Below, one piece after another: positions 9,946 through 20,241 of a stretch of DNA of 39,598 nt. Below the pieces are notes generated by a model. That model was not told where the DNA came from and searched no databases. It saw only the letters and a program-made list of their open reading frames with translations. Both the position numbers and the translations under genes were made by a program. Source of the DNA: Ignavibacteria bacterium (GTDB lineage Bacteria; Bacteroidota; Ignavibacteria; Tepidaquicellales; OLB5); the NCBI GenBank assembly GCA_030835085.1, contig JAUQWQ010000225.1:1-39598 (forward strand). The letters run 5' to 3'. Each line of letters begins with the position of its first letter. The first letter of the stretch is position 1.

Positions 9946-9960
9946 ATTAATTCAATTGAG
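9946..9960 (+). repeat. Left attachment-site candidate
   Basis: ATTAATTCAATTGAG, exact match to 19485-19499, followed by GAATAATACA. Confidence 0.65.
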
Positions 9961-10029
9961 GAATAATACAAAACCCCGTAATTGATTTATTTAAAATGTA
10001 CTTACCTATTTTTGAAAAACACAAAGTCA

Positions 10030-10046
10030 CAAATGAGTACACAAAA
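10030..10046 (+). repeat. Left internal 17-bp direct repeat (possible recombinase arm site)
   Basis: CAAATGAGTACACAAAA, exact match to 19361-19377. Direct repeats inside both ends resemble the arm-type sites bound by the N-terminal domain of Tn916-like integrases. It could also be the true core repeat. Confidence 0.6.
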
Positions 10047-10416
10047 CATATTGATTATAGGCAAATGGCAGGTACGAAGGTTAGATATTCCTAAGCCTTC
10101 GATGAAGTAAAAATATTTATTTGATTTTAGTTTTCACCTGCCCGTGATTGTGTGCAAATTTACGTAATTAATAATACTCAAACAATGTTAAAAATCAATT
10201 TCCATATGCTTATTGAAAAATAAACACGCAAATAGTGGGCTTTATAGCTACTGCCCTATTCAACTTAACAAAAGCAATGCGCCCTTTTATATATTCCCAC
10301 CCTTGCGGAACCCAGCCACAACGCATTAACAAACTGAATAAAAAAAATAAGTCCCTATGATTAAAAGCATATACAATATTTTTTATAATTTTATATTACT
10401 TTCGTTTCCGAAACTC

Positions 10417-10457
10417 ACCCCGCAAAAGCAAAAGGCAAGCTGCAGGCTTGCCGGGGT
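10417..10457. other. Nested hairpin in the left-end noncoding region
   Basis: The 9864-10537 stretch has no convincing gene. It holds the left repeats and this fold: GGCAAGC (10434-10440), loop TGCAG, GCTTGCC (10446-10452), nested within outer ACCCC (10417-10421) and GGGGT (10453-10457). Confidence 0.4.
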
Positions 10458-10495
10458 TTAAACAGTCGTAAACTCATTTCATATAAAATTATATT

Positions 10496-10534
10496 TGAAG
10501 GCGCAATAATACTTATTGCGCTGCCAGGGCAGCG
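10496..10534. terminator. Double hairpin downstream of the first island gene
   Basis: GCGCAATAA, loop TAC, TTATTGCGC (10501-10521, perfect 9-bp arms) overlaps CGCTGCC, AG, GGCAGCG (10519-10534). Both lie just past the stop of the minus-strand gene ending at 10538. The sequence after them in that direction is T/A-rich. The first bases (10496-10509, TGAAGGCGCAATAA) are repeated at 11265-11278. Confidence 0.55.
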
Positions 10535-10537
10535 GAA

Positions 10538-11179
10538 TTATTCCTGTTCTGCGGCAATATACCAGCGTTTAAAATTTATTTCAGATTTGCCGGCGATCTT
10601 ATCACGATTGTATTTGCTATCTGCTATTAGCTTTAAATGCGCCACTTTGATATAACTTAAATTTCGCTTCATTTCAAAATCCCTTTCTGAAGGTACTATG
10701 TAAATCATTTCATCAATGGAATATACCAAACCCAAACCATAATAAAGCGTGGAATTTGTTATTAAACTTAATCCTGCACCCGTTTTAAACCCTGCCAGCT
10801 CATCAATTGTAACGGCAATTACTTTTAATCCTTCATCACTCATGTAAAATTTATAATCATTTGCAGCCCTTATCAAATCTGAAAGCCAGCCCGGCGCATA
10901 TCCGGTGTGTAAATATACTAGCCTTTCAATCTCATCATGTGTGATACCGTAATATTCACACAGATTAGAAATGTTATTAACTAATTTGCCTTCAGTTAGT
11001 TTTCTGTAATGCGCTCTATCGATTTCATACCTTGTCATTTTCTCAGGTATTTCAATTTCTTTATTAAACTCATTTACTTTGAAGGTTTTTAGATCGATAT
11101 CAGTAAAATTTTGACCGTTAATTTTAAGGGCTGCTATGTTAAACCAATTAATGCCGGGTGAATTTATTGTTATATCCAT
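10538..11179 (-). CDS. Island protein of unknown function, 213 residues
   Basis: I do not recognise this protein. It starts MDITINSPGINWFNIAALKINGQNF and contains a helical middle section (MTRYEIDRAHYRKLTEGKLVNNISNLCEYYGITHDEIERLV), then strands near LKVIAVTIDELAGFKTGAGLSLITNSTLYYGLG. It has no signal peptide or membrane segment. It is the only leftward cargo gene at the left end, divergent from the rest of the cargo. A convincing promoter precedes it (11205-11236) and a double hairpin follows. Fourteen-bp direct repeats (10496-10509 and 11265-11278) flank the whole unit, so it may move or recombine as a separate cassette. Confidence 0.65.
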   Translation of the reverse strand: MDITINSPGINWFNIAALKINGQNFTDIDLKTFKVNEFNKEIEIPEKMTRYEIDRAHYRKLTEGKLVNNISNLCEYYGITHDEIERLVYLHTGYAPGWLSDLIRAANDYKFYMSDEGLKVIAVTIDELAGFKTGAGLSLITNSTLYYGLGLVYSIDEMIYIVPSERDFEMKRNLSYIKVAHLKLIADSKYNRDKIAGKSEINFKRWYIAAEQE

Positions 11180-11204
11180 TTGCTTAGTAGGTTTAATTCA
11201 GTTA

Positions 11205-11236
11205 CAAAAATATGAATATATTTATAAATAATGCAA
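11205..11236 (-). promoter_or_regulatory. Bacteroidota-type promoter for the 10538-11179 gene
   Basis: On the minus strand TTG (complement of 11234-11236) is followed after 21 bp by TATTTTTG (complement of 11205-11212), matching TTG-N19-21-TAnnTTTG. The expected start of transcription is about 20 nt upstream of the ATG. Confidence 0.55.
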
Positions 11237-11264
11237 TATTTCCGGGTGTGATCCCCGGCGTTTC

Positions 11265-11278
11265 TGAAGGCGCAATAA
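11265..11278 (+). repeat. 14-bp direct repeat, second copy
   Basis: TGAAGGCGCAATAA, identical and in the same orientation as 10496-10509. The two copies bracket one complete transcription unit. Confidence 0.6.
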
Positions 11279-11357
11279 GCCTATTTTGTGCAAAATTCAG
11301 CTAAAAATAATTGAAAAAATATCATTGAATGATACACATAATGAATTTTTTTATAGC

Positions 11358-11365
11358 TATATTTG
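11358..11365 (+). promoter_or_regulatory. Possible -7 element for the rightward cargo genes
   Basis: TATATTTG fits TAnnTTTG. No good -33 element is visible at the expected spacing. If used, it gives a leader of about 145 nt containing the two folds described next. Confidence 0.35.
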
Positions 11366-11382
11366 TAATGTACAGCAACGAC

Positions 11383-11404
11383 ACGGCCAGCCTCCGTTAA
11401 GGCT
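11383..11404 (+). promoter_or_regulatory. Attenuator-like pair of exclusive hairpins
   Basis: ACGG (11383-11386) can pair with CCGT (11394-11397), or AGCCT (11389-11393) with AGGCT (11400-11404), followed by ATTTTAGTTT. The two stems share bases and cannot form together. Confidence 0.3.
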
Positions 11405-11433
11405 ATTTTAGTTTATAAAAGAAAATTGAAAAT

Positions 11434-11494
11434 TTCCCCGTATGAGCCGTAACCAACCGGCTCCAGGTTTGTCACCTGTGTACAATACGGGGAA
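11434..11494 (+). ncRNA. 61-nt three-way-junction structured element
   Basis: A 10-bp stem, TTCCCCGTAT (11434-11443) with ATACGGGGAA (11485-11494), encloses two adjoining perfect hairpins: GAGCCG/CGGCTC (11444-11449 and 11458-11463, loop TAACCAAC) and CAGGT/ACCTG (11464-11468 and 11474-11478, loop TTGTC). Only six bases (TGTACA) are unpaired at the junction. All 21 pairs are Watson-Crick. It ends 22 bp before the ATG at 11517, so it may be a leader element, a processed RNA, or a cruciform site used by the element. It does not match the conserved bases of purine riboswitches or hammerhead ribozymes as I know them. Confidence 0.6.
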
Positions 11495-11516
11495 TAAATA
11501 AAAGTACAAAACGACT

Positions 11517-11807
11517 ATGATACAAGCTGAAAACAACGCTCAAAAAGCCTTAACACTCCCCCGGCAGCAATCTCTAAAAATTAATGATTTTGGTTATGAC
11601 TTTGTAAGGTTTACAATTTTTGATACTGATTACAGTATCACTGAGCCTTCATTGTTTGCTAAAATATTTGAGCCTTCATACAGGATAAATGCAAGCGAAG
11701 GCAATATAATTTCTATGGAGTATGACTGCCCAAACCCAAACGAGATAAATTGGAAATCTTTTATATTTACTAACTATGAAGCAAAAAGGAAAGAGGTTAG
11801 TTTATAA
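11517..11807 (+). CDS. Island protein of unknown function, 96 residues
   Basis: Unrecognised. It starts MIQAENNAQKALTLPRQQSLKINDFGYDFVRFTIFDTDYSITEPSLFAKIFEPSYRIN and has mixed strand/helix character without signal peptide or membrane segment. The N-terminal third is polar and probably flexible. It is the first rightward cargo gene, 22 bp downstream of the three-way-junction fold, and its stop is one base before the next start, so the two are surely cotranscribed. No family is suggested by its motifs. Confidence 0.55.
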   Translation: MIQAENNAQKALTLPRQQSLKINDFGYDFVRFTIFDTDYSITEPSLFAKIFEPSYRINASEGNIISMEYDCPNPNEINWKSFIFTNYEAKRKEVSL

Positions 11808-11808
11808 T

Positions 11809-12279
11809 ATGAACACAGAAAATATTATCTCTTTACAGGATAAAATAGAACGAAAATTAACAGAAGTTACTTGCTTATATTCCGGCATTGATGAAGTAAT
11901 TATTAACAATAAGAAGGATTTACAAATAACGGAAAACAGTAGAATAATTATTCATTCCATTGATGATAACTTAGAATTGGCATTAAAAGAAATCAAACGG
12001 GGGCAGGTTGAAATCGGGGGAATTGATATTGATACATTAACCCTTCCCCTATGCATGGCAGTTGAACTAAGCGAAGCATTAATAACACTGCTCAATCACT
12101 TTGATTCCGGTAAGCATATATTATCAAAAAATAAGAAGGCAATAAAACAGTTTGCAAAAGAATTGAAATTGTTATATACTATCGATCTCGATAATTTACT
12201 TAAAAGCGATATAGAGCATGAAAGCGAAATAGAAGCATTAATAAGCCAATATTCAAATTGCAATATCATAGCAAAATGA
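11809..12279 (+). CDS. Island protein of unknown function, 156 residues
   Basis: Unrecognised. I place the start at ATG 11809 (MNTENIISLQDKIERKLTEV), one base after the upstream stop and behind a purine-rich AAAGGAAAGAGG. An in-frame ATG at 11776 would overlap the upstream gene by 32 bp. The protein looks soluble and mainly helical, with a hydrophobic stretch LPLCMAVELSEALITLLNHF and then a basic helix (KNKKAIKQFAKELKLLY). It may act with the 96-residue protein upstream. A strong bulged hairpin follows at 12329. Confidence 0.6.
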   Translation: MNTENIISLQDKIERKLTEVTCLYSGIDEVIINNKKDLQITENSRIIIHSIDDNLELALKEIKRGQVEIGGIDIDTLTLPLCMAVELSEALITLLNHFDSGKHILSKNKKAIKQFAKELKLLYTIDLDNLLKSDIEHESEIEALISQYSNCNIIAK

Positions 12280-12328
12280 TATATATTTTTTGATAAAACT
12301 TAAATTATTAAATTCTGTAAACTAAATT

Positions 12329-12364
12329 AAGCTCAATGAGGCAGGGTAAAACCTGCCTGAGCTT
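12329..12364. terminator. Bulged 13-bp hairpin between two cargo genes
   Basis: AAGCTC, bulge AATG, AGGCAGG, loop GTAAAA, CCTGCCT, GAGCTT: six plus seven perfect pairs. It lies 50 bp after one stop and 23 bp before the preferred start of the next gene (12387). No U-tract follows on the plus strand, so it may be a regulatory leader hairpin rather than a terminator. Confidence 0.5.
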
Positions 12365-12386
12365 AATAAATAAATCCGGGCAGGAA

Positions 12387-13139
12387 ATGAAACATAACGG
12401 CATAAAAAAAATCGTACAAGAAATAGATGCAATATGTCGAAGTAACGATAATATTGACATAGTGATAGATCGTGCAAAGGTTTATCTCTTGAATTTTAGC
12501 GAAGTGCATTATTTCGGCAAACAAGCTGCGGGAATGGAATTTTACTCTAGATTAATATTTATTTTTAAGAAGGTTCCAATTGTAAAAAGAAAGCTACTAG
12601 CGGCATTACCAGAGTATAAAGAAGCCATTAAAGAGCATGATAAATTTGTAAAACTATTAGATGATAACAAACTGCGCATTAATAAAGCAAGTAGAGTTAA
12701 GCAACCCATAAAAAAAGAAATTGAATATTGGAAACACAAATATAAAGTAGAGAATATTATTAGGCAAATGTATTATGGAATGATTAGCGTTAAGGTTGAA
12801 AATCTAAAAAGAGAAAACAAAACAAAAGAGTTTGAGGAAATAATAAAGCACCCTGTAATTTCAAAATATTATAAACTTTTTCTAGATACACCTGCAGCCC
12901 TTGATATCTTATTAGATTACATTATAGATAGAGAAATAAAGCACCAAAAAAGATTTTTAATTGATTTAGTAAAAGAAAATCCTAAATACGTCCCACTTAT
13001 AAAAAAGTTTATAAATTACAACTACACTATAATGGATAATACAAACTACATAAGAACATTATTAGAAAAAAAATACAAAGAAAATAAAATAAAAAAAGAA
13101 GTTACAAAACATTTTAAGATAAAAGATTTTACCCATTAG
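12387..13139 (+). CDS. Island protein of unknown function, about 250 residues
   Basis: Unrecognised lysine-rich helical protein. From ATG 12387 it reads MKHNGIKKIVQEIDAICRSND, with an AGGA just upstream. The earlier in-frame ATG at 12336 lies inside the stem-loop at 12329-12364 and would add 17 residues of doubtful value. The body contains FIFKKVPIVKRKLLAALPEYKEAIKEHDKF and later DTPAALDILLDYIIDREIKHQKRFLIDLV, all amphipathic helices, with a very basic tail. The coding sequence is strikingly AT-rich compared with the chromosomal genes, consistent with transfer. Possibly nucleic-acid binding by charge only. Confidence 0.6.
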   Translation: MKHNGIKKIVQEIDAICRSNDNIDIVIDRAKVYLLNFSEVHYFGKQAAGMEFYSRLIFIFKKVPIVKRKLLAALPEYKEAIKEHDKFVKLLDDNKLRINKASRVKQPIKKEIEYWKHKYKVENIIRQMYYGMISVKVENLKRENKTKEFEEIIKHPVISKYYKLFLDTPAALDILLDYIIDREIKHQKRFLIDLVKENPKYVPLIKKFINYNYTIMDNTNYIRTLLEKKYKENKIKKEVTKHFKIKDFTH

Positions 13140-13169
13140 TGGTGAGATTATTTTTTCCCACTTATTTGG

Positions 13170-13391
13170 GTGAAATTTATATTTTCATTTACTGCCGTCA
13201 TTTCATTTGCAATATTGCTAATGAATATGACATACAAAATTTTAAATAAAATAGATTTTTTCATAGAGCACGAAGGTCCATCGCTAAAAAACCTGCCCGG
13301 TTTACCTGCAATGTCATATTCCCTTCGTGCTTTTATATTTTCTATCAATGACATTGCAGCAAACTCACACACGAATACAATTCACGGGTAA
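13170..13391 (+). CDS. Possible small membrane-anchored protein, 73 residues
   Basis: A GTG-start frame reading MKFIFSFTAVISFAILLMNMTYKIL has a hydrophobic N-terminal segment (about residues 4-22) that could be a signal anchor, followed by a short polar tail with GPSLKNLPGLPAMSY. No ribosome site is evident and the last 44 bases overlap the next gene in another frame. It fills the gap after the 12387 gene, so it is plausible but unproven. Confidence 0.35.
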   Translation: MKFIFSFTAVISFAILLMNMTYKILNKIDFFIEHEGPSLKNLPGLPAMSYSLRAFIFSINDIAANSHTNTIHG

Positions 13392-13839
13392 GCATTTTAT
13401 TACTTCACTTCCCGGCAAAAAACATAAAGGTAAAAATCGGATATTACTCGAATTTCTACCCGTACAGCGTATAGCATTTAAGCCCGTTAAGACAAGGCAC
13501 ATTTTCCAGCAAGATAAATCCATAGGTTTTAACTACGAGTTAATCAATTCTTACGGCTCAGATTATTTCAATATAATTTACATTGAATTTAACGGGCGTT
13601 ATTTGTGGACTTCAAGACAAGCGATTCTACGTTATGGTAAAATAAGAACCTTCACAAATAACAAATTAGAAACTCAGATATTTTATAAAATAGATTTTTT
13701 CAAACCTTCAAAAGAAATTGCAGTACAGGAAATGAACAGTATAAATGAATTGACTGCAAATGAAGCGAAAAACGAAATGAAAAAAATCCCGGGTGAAATT
13801 GATCTGTTTGAAGGTACTAATAATAAAAAGGGTAATTGA
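13348..13839 (+). CDS. Island protein of unknown function, 163 residues
   Basis: Unrecognised. I use ATG 13348 (MTLQQTHTRIQFTGKHFITSLPGKKHKG). A GTG at 13327 is the alternative. The protein is basic at the N-terminus, then has a beta-rich stretch (NYELINSYGSDYFNIIYIEFNGRYLWTSRQAILRYGKI) and an acidic C-terminus. It ends three bases before the TTG start of the HNH nuclease gene, so the two are one transcription unit and may be functional partners. No membrane segment is visible. Confidence 0.6.
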   Translation: MTLQQTHTRIQFTGKHFITSLPGKKHKGKNRILLEFLPVQRIAFKPVKTRHIFQQDKSIGFNYELINSYGSDYFNIIYIEFNGRYLWTSRQAILRYGKIRTFTNNKLETQIFYKIDFFKPSKEIAVQEMNSINELTANEAKNEMKKIPGEIDLFEGTNNKKGN

Positions 13840-13842
13840 TTA

Positions 13843-14445
13843 TTGAAAAATACATTCATACCGAAATGCATAAGGCTAGATGTTCTAACCAAATACCCAT
13901 TGAATGCAGTGCAGCGTGAAGCTGTATATTTATTTCTTGTAATGCGTGATGGTGAAAAATGTGCTTTATGCGGATACGTGCCTGCTGAAAATGAAAGACT
14001 TGAAATAGACCATATAGACGGAAACAAGCAAAGGCATTTTCATAAAAACCTTCAATTACTTGATAAGAAATGCAATTGCAACAAAGATAAAAAAGGCTCT
14101 AAAAATGTTTCCGGGAAAGGTATAGATTTTGCTGTGTGTGTGGATACCAATATCATACCACAAGAAGCAAGAAGCGCGGAAACAGCTTTAAAATTAAAAT
14201 ATTACCCTGAATTTATTAAATATCTAAATGAGAAAATTAAAACTCAAACTGTTTTAATTGATATTCAGGAAATGAGTTATAATATGTTTATACGTACCGG
14301 GGGAAGTGATGAAACATTCAAGAGATATGCAAAGTGTATGACCGGATCGGAAGGACCTTTTAGAATATATACAGATACCGTTACAAAGAAAAAATATTTA
14401 CAGTTGAAGGAAAATTCAGAGCTTTATAAAAAATATATGGAATAA
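13843..14445 (+). CDS. HNH endonuclease-like protein
   Basis: The 200-residue protein has an HNH/zinc-finger core at about residues 39-80: CALCGY, then LEIDHIDGNKQRHFHKNLQLLDKKCNCNK, where DH is the first catalytic His, HKNLQLL the Asn helix and CNCN the second metal-binding pair. HNH proteins cut DNA and are common in phages, mobile elements and defence systems. The C-terminal half (from FAVCVDTNIIPQEA) is not recognised and could be a target-recognition or partner domain. Translation starts at TTG 13843 (MKNTFIPK), with AAAAAGGG upstream, directly behind the 13348 gene. Confidence 0.8.
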   Translation: MKNTFIPKCIRLDVLTKYPLNAVQREAVYLFLVMRDGEKCALCGYVPAENERLEIDHIDGNKQRHFHKNLQLLDKKCNCNKDKKGSKNVSGKGIDFAVCVDTNIIPQEARSAETALKLKYYPEFIKYLNEKIKTQTVLIDIQEMSYNMFIRTGGSDETFKRYAKCMTGSEGPFRIYTDTVTKKKYLQLKENSELYKKYME

Positions 14446-15281
14446 ATTCGATAACAAATAAATATAATTCTTTTGACTTTGCAGCAAGCGGAACGAAATG
14501 CAATGGAGTGAAGCGAAGCTGCCCTGTTTGTAGGCTTAAAAGGTTTTGAAGTTACTTTGTTCTTTTAACGGTATTAATGCAATGCGCTGAAATGGAAAGT
14601 AGAAAATTTATTTTTAATTGTCATTTCTCAAAATTTTTAACCTAAAAGGAAACAGTTTTTATATCATTGCTGCATGGTTTAATCAATTCAATCTGTTTTG
14701 AAGGTCCTGAAGGCTAAATGAAAACAAGCCCCATAAATGCGCCAGGTTGAATTTACCCTGTACATATGACTAATTGCAGGTTAAACCCTGCACACGCTCA
14801 AAGGAAACCACCTTAAAAATTGATCCTGAAGGCTATCGCTGAGTGAAAAACCCCGAAATACCGGAACCCGTAAGCCTTCAAAAAGCAAGAAATGCAAATG
14901 TTGAAAAATGTTGAAACTCGAAAAAAGGTTAAAAGAAATTGAAGAAGGTAAAAAAATATCGTTAAGTGCTTTATAAATATAAACGTTAAGCATTTCAAGT
15001 CAGCACTCCTTAAAAGGAAAATACTTCATTTGCTTAATTGCAAAAATTAATCAATAAAAATCTATTTTCCGGGGTATGGAAATAATTATCGGAGTCCCTA
15101 AAAGGGGCTGAAATTTTAGCAAAGTATTTCAAATCAATTAACACTGTTAATAATATTATTTTACAGAAAAAGTATAATTATAATCTCAGGTATTTCAATA
15201 GTTCTGTAAATTGCAGGGAAATATCAGAGAATGAAATTAAGCAAATCAAAAAAATAGATTTATAATTTTAATAAAAATAAC
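14446..15281. other. Noncoding stretch with repeated short hairpins
   Basis: No convincing start-to-stop gene is seen in these 836 bp. TCCTGAAGGCTA occurs at 14705-14716 and 14824-14835, each followed by a related TGAAAA...CCCC segment. TGCAGG/CCTGCA (14775-14780 with 14787-14792) is a hairpin, and a look-alike CAGGTT...ACCCTG precedes it. A 22-codon frame (14908, MLKLEKRLKEIEEGKKISL) and an ATG-less frame (15086-15265) are also present. It may hold a structured RNA or a decayed gene. Confidence 0.4.
15086..15265 (+). pseudogene. ATG-less open frame before the 15282 gene
   Basis: 59 sense codons read LSESLKGAEILAKYFKSINT... to KQIKKIDL and stop 16 bp before the next start. The translation looks protein-like (an amphipathic helix pattern), but there is no ATG, GTG or TTG to begin it. 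A short ATG frame at 15076 runs into a stop in a different frame. It is either the remnant of a small regulator gene or begins with a rare start codon. Confidence 0.3.
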
Positions 15282-16025
15282 ATGAACACTTCAAACAATT
15301 CATTAACAGAAAAACCCGGTTTTGTAAAAAAGCATATCGAAGGCTTTCAGTTAATGATTTCCGAAATAGAAAACAAAAAAGGAAATAGCCCCCTGCTGCC
15401 TTACCTGAATAATGAAGGCTTAATAGTTTTAAGATATCACACTCCACACGCAAAAATTGATATTGAGTATAAAGCAAAAGTCCTTCAGTATTTAAAATCG
15501 GATTTTGAAACATTAATAAATACTACCTGGAATGATGAAGCTCAATTGTTAAAATGGCAATCCTCACTACGTCATTACCTGCCTTTACCGGATAAATTAA
15601 CTGAGCTGTTAAATGAAAATCCGGAATATTCTGGAACGCTTTTAGAATTGTTAAATGATATAGCTTATGGCTTGCACACAAATTTGCTTAATTACGAAAA
15701 ACTTTACAAGAAGGCTCATAATGGTACATTTCACACGGGCATATACAATAACAAATTAATCATATACTTTGATACAGAGGAAGATAAACCGGCAAACACA
15801 AATTTAGAATATGCATATTGGCATCATTGTTATAATGATCTTATCGCATTAAAAAATACGGAATGGAAAAACCTCGAGCACCTTCAGGAATGGTTTAATT
15901 CATTGAAACACTACCCCCGTATTGTAATGGGAAAAGATTTTGATAACACACTAAAAGAAAAAAACATGTTTAATATACCTTTGAATTTTGAGGTTAGAAA
16001 TATTGAGAGCGCAAATAATGGCTAA
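15282..16025 (+). CDS. Island protein with two internal repeats, 247 residues
   Basis: Unrecognised. The protein contains two related modules. The first (about residues 46-99) reads GLIVLRYHT ... DFETLINTTWNDEAQLLKW and SSLRHYLPLP. The second (about 158-213) reads KLIIYFDTE ... NDLIALKNTEWKNLEHLQEW and NSLKHYPRIV. Each has a beta strand, a helix ending in a Thr-x-Trp, and a LxxWxxSLxHY helix. This implies an internal duplication. Its stop overlaps the next gene's start by eight bases, so the two are translationally coupled and probably work together. There is no signal peptide. Confidence 0.65.
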   Translation: MNTSNNSLTEKPGFVKKHIEGFQLMISEIENKKGNSPLLPYLNNEGLIVLRYHTPHAKIDIEYKAKVLQYLKSDFETLINTTWNDEAQLLKWQSSLRHYLPLPDKLTELLNENPEYSGTLLELLNDIAYGLHTNLLNYEKLYKKAHNGTFHTGIYNNKLIIYFDTEEDKPANTNLEYAYWHHCYNDLIALKNTEWKNLEHLQEWFNSLKHYPRIVMGKDFDNTLKEKNMFNIPLNFEVRNIESANNG

Positions 16026-17454
16026 TGGTTTATATATAAAAAAATATAGCGGTACAAATTATTTCTATGACCGTGTTTTTATTGATAGCATTAAATTAGA
16101 TTCGATTCCTACAGATGGCATTCCCCTGTTTATGTGGGATACAGAAGACATATGGAGTAATGAAAAAGTTTTGGGTTCTGTTTATTGTGGTGATTTTAGA
16201 CTAAAACTTTCATTCGTTCAAAATGTAGTATCGCAGTCAGGAAAATCACTTCATGATTTTATTTTTAGAAATGATGATTTAGAAGACTATTTTTTTTTAG
16301 TGATACTTATTTCGGGTAACTATGAATTTAGCGGGACCGCCAGGCCTGAAAATATAAGCGCAAATTTTAATTATAATGACAATGATTCTTATTATATGGA
16401 TATTTGGTGTTTTGGTTTAAGCGCGGAATTTGCAAGACGTGTAGGCAGGGCACCCCTATCAACTTTAGATTTTCCAAACGGACAAATAAAAACTTTTGAG
16501 CAGTATATCCCGTTTCATTTCGGGGGATTAACTTCAAATACAGTGCTAATCAATTTACCTTCGCAAAGTTATAAAAATAGATTAGCAAATTATGGCAACC
16601 CTGCAGGTGTTTGGGCTTATGGTGATTTCTTTAATTTCATTAATGACAAATCCTCCATTAGCAGGTGGGAAGCATTCAGAGAGCTTGCAAGGGGTTTAGG
16701 TTTTTCTTATGAAATGTATTTAAACCCCGGCAGCGAAGTAACTAGCGAACCGGAATTTATTTTTAATATATTTTTCCTTAAGGACCTTGAAGGTACAGAG
16801 CCTATCAGAATAGAACAGGTAATAAAACATAATCAGGAATTAACTCACCTGTATGCTAAATGGTTATTTTTAAAATATAGAAGTCTAAGCCGTGATGGTG
16901 TTGATTATTCAAGTGGTATTTTTATTTCAAAAAACGGTAGGTTTGATAGTGACGCTGACCAAAACCATAATCAGTTATACCCAGCATGTTTAATTTATAT
17001 GAATGGTAAATTACTAAGCTATGATGAAGGAACCGGGGGTTTAATAAACTTATACAAAGATGTAGAATTTAAAGAATATGAATTGAAACAATATCCTTAT
17101 TCCTTTGGCAGTGGTGGCGGTCAGGGTAAGCTATACCCCTTAAACGAAGGTTATTCCGGTGGCATGGCATATGCTAAAATATTTAACGCCGCAACCGGAT
17201 CGGGAACAAATATTGATAGATATGACAACAAGCCAATTCAAAGATATGCAATTGAAAACTATAAAAGATTTTTAAGGTCATATGCAAAACAAAAAATATT
17301 AGAATTGCCATTAGACCAAACGGGAATAACGAAACCCTGGCAAAATGTAGTTTTGAATGATGGTGGTGGTGATGAACATTATTACATTAGTTCAATTAGG
17401 GATCTAAATTTATTTAAACGAACGATGAAAGTAACATTAATTAAGTATTACTGA
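16018..17454 (+). CDS. Putative phage tail/baseplate-like protein
   Basis: From ATG 16018 (GAGAG upstream; an earlier start at 15988 overlaps the previous gene more) the protein has 478 residues. The pattern NYEFSGTARPENISANFNYND...YYMDIWCFGLSAEF is like tail proteins of Bacteroidota prophages that read GxxxPxxxxxxF followed by a D.L strand. SRWEAFRELARGLGFSYEMYLNP and a C-terminal YYISSIRDLNLFKRTMKVTLIKYY resemble hub or tail-tip proteins. This is a pattern-based guess and no other structural phage gene is in the island. It could be a remnant, or a tail-like protein used by a satellite or toxin device. It ends two bases before a convergent lipoprotein gene. Confidence 0.5.
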   Translation: MANGLYIKKYSGTNYFYDRVFIDSIKLDSIPTDGIPLFMWDTEDIWSNEKVLGSVYCGDFRLKLSFVQNVVSQSGKSLHDFIFRNDDLEDYFFLVILISGNYEFSGTARPENISANFNYNDNDSYYMDIWCFGLSAEFARRVGRAPLSTLDFPNGQIKTFEQYIPFHFGGLTSNTVLINLPSQSYKNRLANYGNPAGVWAYGDFFNFINDKSSISRWEAFRELARGLGFSYEMYLNPGSEVTSEPEFIFNIFFLKDLEGTEPIRIEQVIKHNQELTHLYAKWLFLKYRSLSRDGVDYSSGIFISKNGRFDSDADQNHNQLYPACLIYMNGKLLSYDEGTGGLINLYKDVEFKEYELKQYPYSFGSGGGQGKLYPLNEGYSGGMAYAKIFNAATGSGTNIDRYDNKPIQRYAIENYKRFLRSYAKQKILELPLDQTGITKPWQNVVLNDGGGDEHYYISSIRDLNLFKRTMKVTLIKYY

Positions 17455-17456
17455 GC

Positions 17457-17927
17457 TTATTTACTTTCAATCTTAAAATTACGAATTGATATATATTTTT
17501 CGGGTGTTGGTAAAACAGTATTTCTTAATCCTAAGTTTAAATTAATAGTTTTGTTTACAAGTGCGCTATCTGAATGACCGTAGAAAATATAAGGCTGCCC
17601 CTGTAAGAAATCATGATGAAGTGTGTATTCTAAAATATTATTACCATTATCAATTATGCTGAAATTTGCATAATCGTAACTATTGCTATCATTATTAGTA
17701 TAAACATTGAATGAAACCTTAAAACTATCGAGGTCAAAAATTGAAATGTTTGTGTAACCTGTATCATGGAAACCAAAATTTGAAGTGCGAAGCGTGAAGC
17801 TATCCAATGAATAAAAAATTGTATTGCCACTATTCCCGTTGTTGTTTGTCACTGTATCGTTACCACAGGAATAAATAAATAAAACGGCAATCGCAGGTAT
17901 TAAAAAATAATTGCAAAGTGTTTTCAT
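17457..17927 (-). CDS. Putative lipoprotein, 156 residues
   Basis: The N-terminus (MKTLCNYFLIPAIAVLFIYSCGND) is a lipoprotein signal with lipobox YSC. The mature protein begins with a flexible Thr/Asn/Gly linker (NDTVTNNNGNSGN) and continues as a beta-rich domain (SLDSFTLRTSNF, FSIIDNGNNILEYTLHHDF). It would be anchored to a membrane facing the periplasm. No family is recognised. A possible -7 element, TATTTTTG on the minus strand (17948-17955), lies just before the start. It is a cargo gene, convergent with the tail-like gene and divergent from the excisionase gene. Confidence 0.6.
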   Translation of the reverse strand: MKTLCNYFLIPAIAVLFIYSCGNDTVTNNNGNSGNTIFYSLDSFTLRTSNFGFHDTGYTNISIFDLDSFKVSFNVYTNNDSNSYDYANFSIIDNGNNILEYTLHHDFLQGQPYIFYGHSDSALVNKTINLNLGLRNTVLPTPEKYISIRNFKIESK

Positions 17928-17990
17928 AAGTAAAAAATTTAATTTCTCAAAAATAGTTCAAATAAAGAATTTATAAAATACCTTCTGTTA

Positions 17991-18248
17991 GTGGATTTAA
18001 AAACAATAAATAGAAAATTAGATATCATATTGAAGGACCTGAACCGGAAACAGCCGCCGTTATCGGTTATTGAGGCTTGTGCATATCTGAAGGTTAAAAA
18101 ATCCACACTGTATAAGCTCACTGCAAGCCGTGTAATTCCATATTACAAGCCAAATGGGCAAACGATTTATTTCGATATTGAAGACCTTGAACGCTATGCA
18201 TATTCACACAAGATCGAAACGGCTGAAAGTATAAAAGAAAAATTTTGA
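17991..18248 (+). CDS. Excisionase-like HTH protein (MerR/HTH_17 type)
   Basis: The 85-residue protein starts at GTG (MDLKTINRKLDII) and contains a winged helix of the excisionase type: PPLSVIEACAYLKVKKSTLYKLTASRVIPYYKPNGQTIYFDIEDLERYAYSHKI. The 'S/T-LYK...IPYYK..G..IYFD..DLE.Y' pattern is the DNA-binding domain of Xis-like proteins that set the direction of tyrosine-recombinase reactions. Its stop codon directly abuts the stop of the convergent integrase gene. In Bacteroidota mobile elements a gene of this type commonly sits beside the integrase. Small transcription factors share the fold. Confidence 0.8.
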   Translation: MDLKTINRKLDIILKDLNRKQPPLSVIEACAYLKVKKSTLYKLTASRVIPYYKPNGQTIYFDIEDLERYAYSHKIETAESIKEKF

Positions 18249-19331
18249 TTAGCCTTCTTTAATCTCCAAAACAGGCAGTGAATTAACTGCATTTTTCCTT
18301 ACATCATTAATGATATTAGCATATATCTGTGTAGTCTGTATATCTGCATGACCTAATAATTTTGATACCGTGTAGAGGTCAGCCCCTTGCGTTATTAACA
18401 TAGTTGCATATGAATGGCGGGCAGTATGGAAGGTAATATTTTTTCTAATTTTCAATGGCGCAATAAATCTTTTTAAATCCCTTGTCATAGTTACATAATT
18501 TAAGCCTTCAAACACTCTACCCGTTGCATTGTAAATATTGCCTGAGCTTGTTAATATCTTTTGGGCTGTTTTGCTCAGATCGAAATATTCGTAATCCCCC
18601 GTTTTTTCATCAAATCTTTGTATCTTATTATTATTAATTTCCTCATAAAGTAAATTGCAAACGCTGCGCCTTCTTAATCCTGTGAAGCATGAAAACAAAA
18701 AAGCCCGTTTTATTAATTCATACCTTCCCCCGGGCAGTGCTGCAATTTTTTCAATTTCATCAATTGTTAAAAATTCCCTTTTTACACTTTGTGGCTTTAT
18801 TGTATCTACATTTTTTACGGGTGTATTTTCTATTAACCCTTCCCTTACAGCTTTATTAAGAAGGGTTTTAAGTTTCAAATAATATGCTCTTGCGGAATTA
18901 ATCGAAAGTTTAGACTGTAATAGCGATAGCCTGAATTTTTCAATCCATTTGCGATCTATATTTTTTAAATTAATATCACTCTTTAAATAATTTTGAAGGT
19001 ATGTATATAAGTTATCATACAGTGTATTGCCTTTTTGATGTTCAATAACAGTGCTCAGGTAGTTTAATAAACTGATATGATTTTCACGCTCTATGCATTG
19101 TGAGATACTTTTAGTTTGCTGCAGTTTCTTATTTTCCTGAATAAGCAAGATACTTACTTCATCAATTGTTTTGTTATTTTCCTTAGTGAATTTCTTATGT
19201 TCAATTAAATAATGATTAATGCACCGGCGCGATCTTGTTTGACCCTTCAGGTAGTAATCAAAATACAATGAAGTTTTAATATACTTACCTTCTTTACTGT
19301 AAATTTTTCTCTTATATAATTTCACGCTCAT
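18249..19331 (-). CDS. Tyrosine recombinase (integrase)
   Basis: The 360-residue protein has the full architecture: an N-terminal arm-binding region (MSVKLYKRKIYSKEGKYIKTSLYFDYYLKGQ), a SAM-like core-binding domain (about 90-180), and the catalytic domain with Arg in CFTGLRRRSVCNLL, HTARHSYATML (H-x-x-R), LLGHADIQTTQIYANI (His and the Tyr nucleophile). It catalyses integration and excision of the island. Its start is about 150 bp from the right 15-bp repeat and about 30 bp from the internal 17-bp repeat, as expected for an integrase next to its attachment site. It resembles integrases of Bacteroidota mobile elements. Confidence 0.93.
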   Translation of the reverse strand: MSVKLYKRKIYSKEGKYIKTSLYFDYYLKGQTRSRRCINHYLIEHKKFTKENNKTIDEVSILLIQENKKLQQTKSISQCIERENHISLLNYLSTVIEHQKGNTLYDNLYTYLQNYLKSDINLKNIDRKWIEKFRLSLLQSKLSINSARAYYLKLKTLLNKAVREGLIENTPVKNVDTIKPQSVKREFLTIDEIEKIAALPGGRYELIKRAFLFSCFTGLRRRSVCNLLYEEINNNKIQRFDEKTGDYEYFDLSKTAQKILTSSGNIYNATGRVFEGLNYVTMTRDLKRFIAPLKIRKNITFHTARHSYATMLITQGADLYTVSKLLGHADIQTTQIYANIINDVRKNAVNSLPVLEIKEG

Positions 19332-19360
19332 AATTTTATCGTTTAATTTTCATATGTACG

Positions 19361-19377
19361 CAAATGAGTACACAAAA
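19361..19377 (+). repeat. Right internal 17-bp direct repeat
   Basis: CAAATGAGTACACAAAA, identical to 10030-10046, just upstream of the integrase start. Confidence 0.6.
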
Positions 19378-19484
19378 TTTTACTAAAAGCCGAAACAAGA
19401 GGAAACAGGATATTAGTTAATAATGCTCACAGTACACGTATTCAGCACATTTTTAAAGATTAACAACGATAATTAAAACAAGTG

Positions 19485-19499
19485 ATTAATTCAATTGAG
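19485..19499 (+). repeat. Right attachment-site candidate, in the phosphorylase 3' end
   Basis: ATTAATTCAATTGAG, identical to 9946-9960. Bases 19486-19488 are the complement of the phosphorylase stop codon. Confidence 0.65.
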
Positions 19500-20241
19500 A
19501 AATGAATACAGGGAGCACTTTTTTAAGGCTTTGGGTTGCTTTTTCAGCCGTTATTAAAACATTAGAGTGTGAGGTTTGCCCTGAAGAATTTTCTTTAAGC
19601 AAATTGGTTATTACTGATACTGCCGCAACATTTATTTTTTTTGAAACCGCATCAATTACTTCGGGTACTGTTGACATTCCTGCAGCATCAAGCTTAATCC
19701 TTTTCTGAAAACGTATTTCAGAATTTGTTTCATAGGTCGGGCCGGTATAACAGCCGTATGTTCCTTCCTGAAGTTTTACATTGGTAATTTTACAGGAATT
19801 CCTGAATTTATCCTGCAGCTCTTTGCAGTAAAAAACTGGATTGTTTTTTACTGCGCTGAATTTCAGTTTATCAATAAAATTGATGTGTGAGGTTATGAGC
19901 ATTAAGTCACCTTCTGAAAAATTCTCATTCAAACCGCCTGCGGCATTTGTGATGAGGATATTTTCAGCTCCAAGTTCAACCGCATAATTTATGTTTGAAG
20001 TGATTTCTTCCAGGCTGTATCCTTCGTAAAAATGCCTTCTTCCTTTGAAGACCAGGATACATTTACCATTCACAATGCACTTATAGATAACTTTGTGGTG
20101 AACTCCGCCTTTCTCTTCAAATAGTACGGATTTATCACTTACAATACTATCATCAATATCTACCCCGCTGCCGAGTATCAAAGCCAGCCCTATTTTGCTA
20201 TTATTTATCAATTTAAATGAATAATTCTTTTTATGTTTCAA
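19486..20241 (-). CDS. Purine nucleoside phosphorylase
   Basis: It has the family I nucleoside phosphorylase motifs: LALILGSGVD (phosphate loop), VFKGRRHFYEGYS, ILITNAAGGLNENF, TYGCYTGPTYETNSEIRF and LDAAGMSTVPEVI. The enzyme splits purine nucleosides with phosphate for purine salvage. The frame stays open to an ATG at 20343, but the extra 34 residues are hydrophobic and not family-like. I prefer TTG 20241 (MKHKKNYSFKL), because a TAnnTTTG promoter element lies at 20259-20266 and the normal N-terminus is short before LGSG. An island appears to have entered at the 3' end of this gene, whose last codons form the right repeat. Confidence 0.87.
   Translation of the reverse strand: MKHKKNYSFKLINNSKIGLALILGSGVDIDDSIVSDKSVLFEEKGGVHHKVIYKCIVNGKCILVFKGRRHFYEGYSLEEITSNINYAVELGAENILITNAAGGLNENFSEGDLMLITSHINFIDKLKFSAVKNNPVFYCKELQDKFRNSCKITNVKLQEGTYGCYTGPTYETNSEIRFQKRIKLDAAGMSTVPEVIDAVSKKINVAAVSVITNLLKENSSGQTSHSNVLITAEKATQSLKKVLPVFISQLN

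Follow-up and report, generated by a model that had tools for sequence, protein, structure and literature searches.

Why does a perfectly paired, branched hairpin stand directly ahead of a run of mostly orphan genes, and does it act as RNA, as DNA or not at all? We addressed this question in a 39,598-nt stretch of Ignavibacteria DNA (hereafter the window, meaning the whole 39.6 kb that was analysed). The original prediction had described a 10-bp stem enclosing abutting hairpins of 6 and 5 bp with only TGTACA unpaired, and exactly this arrangement was found:

11434-11494, + strand: three-way junction of 61 nt, TTCCCCGTAT-GAGCCG-TAACCAAC-CGGCTC-CAGGT-TTGTC-ACCTG-TGTACA-ATACGGGGAA
11434-11443 paired with 11485-11494, + strand: closing stem of 10 bp, read from the sequence
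11444-11463, + strand: hairpin 1, 6-bp stem, loop TAACCAAC
11464-11478, + strand: hairpin 2, 5-bp stem, loop TTGTC
11479-11484, + strand: unpaired TGTACA

As had been claimed, the pairs in the stems of 10, 6 and 5 bp are all Watson-Crick (21/21). The two inner hairpins adjoin directly, leaving 0/0/6 unpaired nucleotides at the junction, and their loops of 8 and 5 nt lack long loop-loop complementarity. The AT-rich surroundings also proved correct, with a GC content of 54% in the fold as compared to 30% in the left and 23% in the right intergenic flank.

Folded as RNA, the site has a minimum free energy of -28.8 kcal/mol on the + strand (z -4.6) and -32.4 kcal/mol on the - strand (z -5.7), and on neither strand was any dinucleotide shuffle as stable (0/200 each). 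DNA parameters gave the same junction on both strands, at -17.9 and -18.9 kcal/mol. A sliding scan of 61-nt segments revealed the most stable fold of this length in the window, on either strand; at steps of 5 nt the site ranked first on the - strand and among the first four on the + strand, where its exact value (-28.8) is the best once the step offset is removed. It is also the only perfect junction in the window with a closing stem of at least 8 bp and inner stems of at least 4 bp. First-order Markov sequence with the window's composition, 77 Mb in all, gave 45 perfect junctions with stems of 8/5/5 bp or longer and 4 perfect junctions with at least 21 pairs, the latter corresponding to ~0.002 per window (about 1 in 500). 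A 1.24-Mb sample of natural DNA, which contains the window's own site several times, yielded one other perfect junction, with 20 pairs and neither inner stem shorter than 5 bp. The fold is real, and chance is an improbable source of it within one window; a rarity of 1 in 500 is no proof of function, because the first-stage scan presumably spanned many windows.

The fold lies in an integrative element, whose ends and integrase are as follows:

9946-19503, no strand assigned: integrative element of 9.54 kb, recognised by att repeats, a tyrosine integrase and an empty site in same-genus genomes
9946-9964 and 19485-19503: att direct repeats, with the core ATTAATTCAATTGAG at 9946-9960 and 19485-19499
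10030-10046 and 19361-19377: identical 17-bp arm-type repeats, CAAATGAGTACACAAAA, inside each element end
18249-19331, - strand: tyrosine integrase of the element, at its right end

Alignments to five same-genus genomes skip from ~9960-9970 to 19485, and a sixth genome, which is more diverged, fits the same pattern; the empty sites of these relatives carry ATTAATTCAATTGAG once, with small substitutions. By its integrase, its direct att repeats and the empty site in relatives, the region is a mobile element, and the island that carries the fold is a recent acquisition. The genes that matter for the fold are these:

10538-11179, - strand: divergent leftward gene, 213 aa, orphan
11517-11807, + strand: first rightward gene, 96 aa, orphan
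13843-14445: HNH nuclease
15988-17454, + strand: homologue (~40-45% at the amino acid level) of a gene in the phage-like structural cluster of the genus; protein at 16018-17454

Between the leftward gene and the rightward genes from 11517 lies a 337-bp intergenic region, in which the fold ends 22 nt upstream of the 11517 start codon; the predicted position ahead of the cargo genes thus stands, the site lying between divergent genes of what is indeed an integrative element. Families could be recognised only for the integrase, the HNH nuclease and the 15988-17927 pair among the flanking genes, and structure predictions of the 213-aa protein and the 16018-17454 protein were too poor for use.

Several other features of the island were observed. 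Homologues of the 16018-17454 protein and, in several loci, of the lipoprotein-like 17457-17927 product adjoin each other in a compact phage-like cluster (L081-L086), which contains a CI-like repressor, terminase, portal, major head protein and endolysin. Six of 12 same-genus genomes carry the cluster, and the own genome contains a fragment of it (G000:C194); it may be a prophage of wide distribution or a module akin to a gene-transfer agent, with the island as its possible satellite or remnant. A stretch of 830 bp (14446-15281) has no sizeable ORF, with all three forward frames broken, and possibly represents decayed genes. A 27-nt repeat around GGCGCAATAA occurs in three copies (10491-10517, 11260-11286 and 18448-18474), two flanking the leftward gene and one within the integrase gene; these are possible protein-binding sites.

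The fold's place close to one end of a mobile element, together with the identical junction on both DNA strands (-17.9 and -18.9 kcal/mol), would suit a DNA site, that is, a hairpin on single-stranded or supercoiled DNA that an element protein binds or nicks for replication or transfer. The origins of satellites and plasmids are often found in divergent intergenic regions, which also favours this reading. However, the fold is away from the att ends, no iterons surround it, and no HUH/Rep protein or relaxase was recognised among the element proteins, where orphans could hide one. We consider a DNA site distinctly unlikely.

A search for relatives was made at several levels. DNA similarity showed the fold to be single-copy in its own genome and gave only partial matches of ~20 nt, none with the junction, in family and phylum genomes. 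A single-sequence covariance model, which detects only fairly similar relatives and may pass over distant ones, returned nothing convincing from 345 phylum genomes and 38 relatives, and no match in fetched related islands and phage-like clusters. Phages and plasmids searched by blastn held no relative of the fold, none of the 63 viral contigs with the closing-stem palindrome had the junction, and neither did any match to a loop-only pattern with free stems in the own genome, viral contigs and a one-genome-per-species collection. Overall, no homologue was found in the own genome, up to 395 phylum genomes, viral contigs, phages, plasmids or Rfam. The 11517, 11776, 12336 and 10538 proteins, used as bait, yielded nothing usable in the searched genomes; a match of the 11517 protein in G013 (26% over 57 residues) is weak and was judged to be chance. 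About a dozen viral contigs share a recurrent 43-nt hairpin-like sequence, CCCCGTAT...ATACGGGG, which is unrelated to the junction (loci L109, L110, L112, L117, L120, L121, L127, L132-L134, L144, L167 and L168). Neither the fold nor the neighbouring genes yielded usable relatives in these searches.

These searches showed no conservation, about 1 in 500 windows of such composition gives an equally good perfect junction while a scan of this kind takes in many windows, and the island also has its 830 bp of broken frames; all of this would fit a chance or relic hairpin of no present function, surfaced in a degenerate intergenic region by a large fold scan. Two features point the other way: the composition of the fold is sharply unlike that of its flanks, and a decaying relic should show some mismatch or G-U pair, whereas the 21 pairs have none. 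A lack of function is, on balance, unlikely.

If the fold acts as RNA, its strand matters. Directly after it the + strand reads TAAATAAAAG, with no T-run; it is not a rightward intrinsic terminator, because no U-tract directly follows the hairpin. The - strand continues with ATTTTCAATTTTC, an interrupted T-rich tract, and could hold a leftward branched intrinsic terminator or insulator that keeps antisense transcription from the operon side out of the divergent gene and the region controlling it. Such a site needs no leader role, and the greater stability on the - strand (-32.4) and ATTTTCAATTTTCTTTTATA after the fold (5 T in 8 from one base past the stem) are in its favour. The site resembles an intrinsic terminator in its stable GC-rich hairpin and T-rich tail on the - strand, but differs in being branched, in its imperfect T-tract and in having no gene to terminate: no leftward gene ends nearby, and the next leftward genes are ~6 kb off. 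A three-way hairpin is, moreover, an unusual terminator shape, and the fold is absent from the list of a terminator scanner because the loop limit of that scanner is 8. We regard this terminator as improbable, although it comes next after the leader among the readings.

The features below bear on the leader of the rightward operon:

11358-11365, + strand: TATATTTG, weak putative promoter of the rightward operon, matching the Bacteroidota -7 consensus TAnnTTTG (PMC7366714)
11205-11212, - strand: TATTTTTG, weak putative -7 element of the leftward gene, close to its start codon
11389-11404, + strand: short hairpin resembling a terminator, within the leader, AGCCTCCGTTAAGGCT followed by ATTTTAGTTT; the 3' part of the hairpin can pair instead with 11546-11554
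11442-11501, + strand: possible leader ORF of 19 codons, MSRNQPAPGLSPVYNTGNK and a stop codon, open by sequence only

The TAnnTTTG-like site on the + strand is 159 nt upstream of the 11517 gene. If both -7 matches are real, the fold would belong to the rightward leader only, because the leftward promoter leaves it outside its own leader; at least one such motif per strand is expected with a chance of 0.23 in a shuffled region of this kind, and the matches, which presume a host of the phylum Bacteroidota, are weak evidence of strand. The pairs of the fold persisted in every leader context tried, with a mean predicted pair probability of 0.97, while the ATG bases of the 11517 gene are predicted to be 65-96% unpaired. 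Without the fold, the leader is ordinary relative to shuffles (z -0.62), and with it the z-score falls to -3.8 to -4.2; in the modelled leader, the fold is an isolated domain. A long-range pairing of 9 bp, GTTAAGGCT/AGCCTTAAC (11396-11404 with 11546-11554), has a predicted probability of ~0.9 and would enclose the fold and the start codon, with the caveat that one 9-bp match in 200 nt is not rare. The 19-codon ORF begins within the 5' arm of the closing stem, crosses the fold and ends 15 nt short of the 11517 start codon. No homologue of its product was found, and an ORF of such length is not rare and may have arisen by chance.

We favour, at a probability of roughly 0.4, the reading as an independently folding leader domain, situated 5' of the rightward operon (11517 onward) and acting post-transcriptionally. 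What favours it is the stability and rarity of the fold, its GC island, the divergent genes, the TAnnTTTG-like site upstream, the persistence of the fold in an otherwise unstructured leader with a largely unpaired ATG, the lack of a T-run after it on the + strand and the ORF that spans it. The leader reading is weakened by the lack of a homologue and hence of covariation, by the 23% chance, per strand, of meeting the -7 motif in such a region, by an ORF that is not rare by chance, and by the greater stability on the - strand, which does not favour a + strand RNA. Transcription would begin near 11370, and close to the 5' end of the leader mRNA the branched hairpin could serve as a compact operator or roadblock, which may shield the mRNA from decay, be recognised by an element-encoded protein, or both. 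Alternatively or in addition, a ribosome translating the 19-codon ORF through the hairpin might recognise it and could melt the fold. Expression of the operon would then be set post-transcriptionally while the start codon stays exposed.

Among the options first proposed (leader RNA, separate small RNA or cruciform site), position and context favour the leader; no evidence was found for the separate small RNA. A distinct, element-encoded small RNA would suit so compact and very stable a fold, but the + strand has no T-run, no promoter/terminator pair surrounds the fold, no Rfam family covers it and the leftward gene has a promoter-like site of its own near its start; we consider a separate small RNA very improbable. 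The leader thus ranks as most likely, followed by the leftward terminator, no function and the DNA site.

Comparison with known systems gave partial likenesses. Purine-type riboswitches are three-way junctions with a closing stem and two side-by-side hairpins, a plan which the fold shares, but its junction (0/0/6 unpaired) and its loops (8 and 5 nt) differ and it has no Rfam match. No Rfam 15 covariance model matched at the gathering score, and a relaxed search was also empty over the fold; the earlier statement that its loops are absent from known riboswitch and ribozyme sets holds as far as Rfam 15 shows, and we found no evidence for riboswitch or ribozyme identity. Like the leader of T4 gene 32, the fold is compact, precedes the start codon of a gene on a mobile element and could affect translation or mRNA stability. 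The T4 leader, which has an autoregulatory protein site, contains a pseudoknot whose role was shown by experiment (PMC3014915), while the fold is a three-way junction for which no homologues were found. No described element resembling it was found in the literature.

It is doubtful that the junction represents an undescribed class, either of leader RNA or of DNA control site, that is confined to a family of small integrative elements of this lineage and couples the 19-codon ORF to the fold; one sequence for which no relatives were found is as yet too little to establish a new class. If functional, the fold would be a new control element in poorly studied integrative elements, nearly all of whose genes are orphans.
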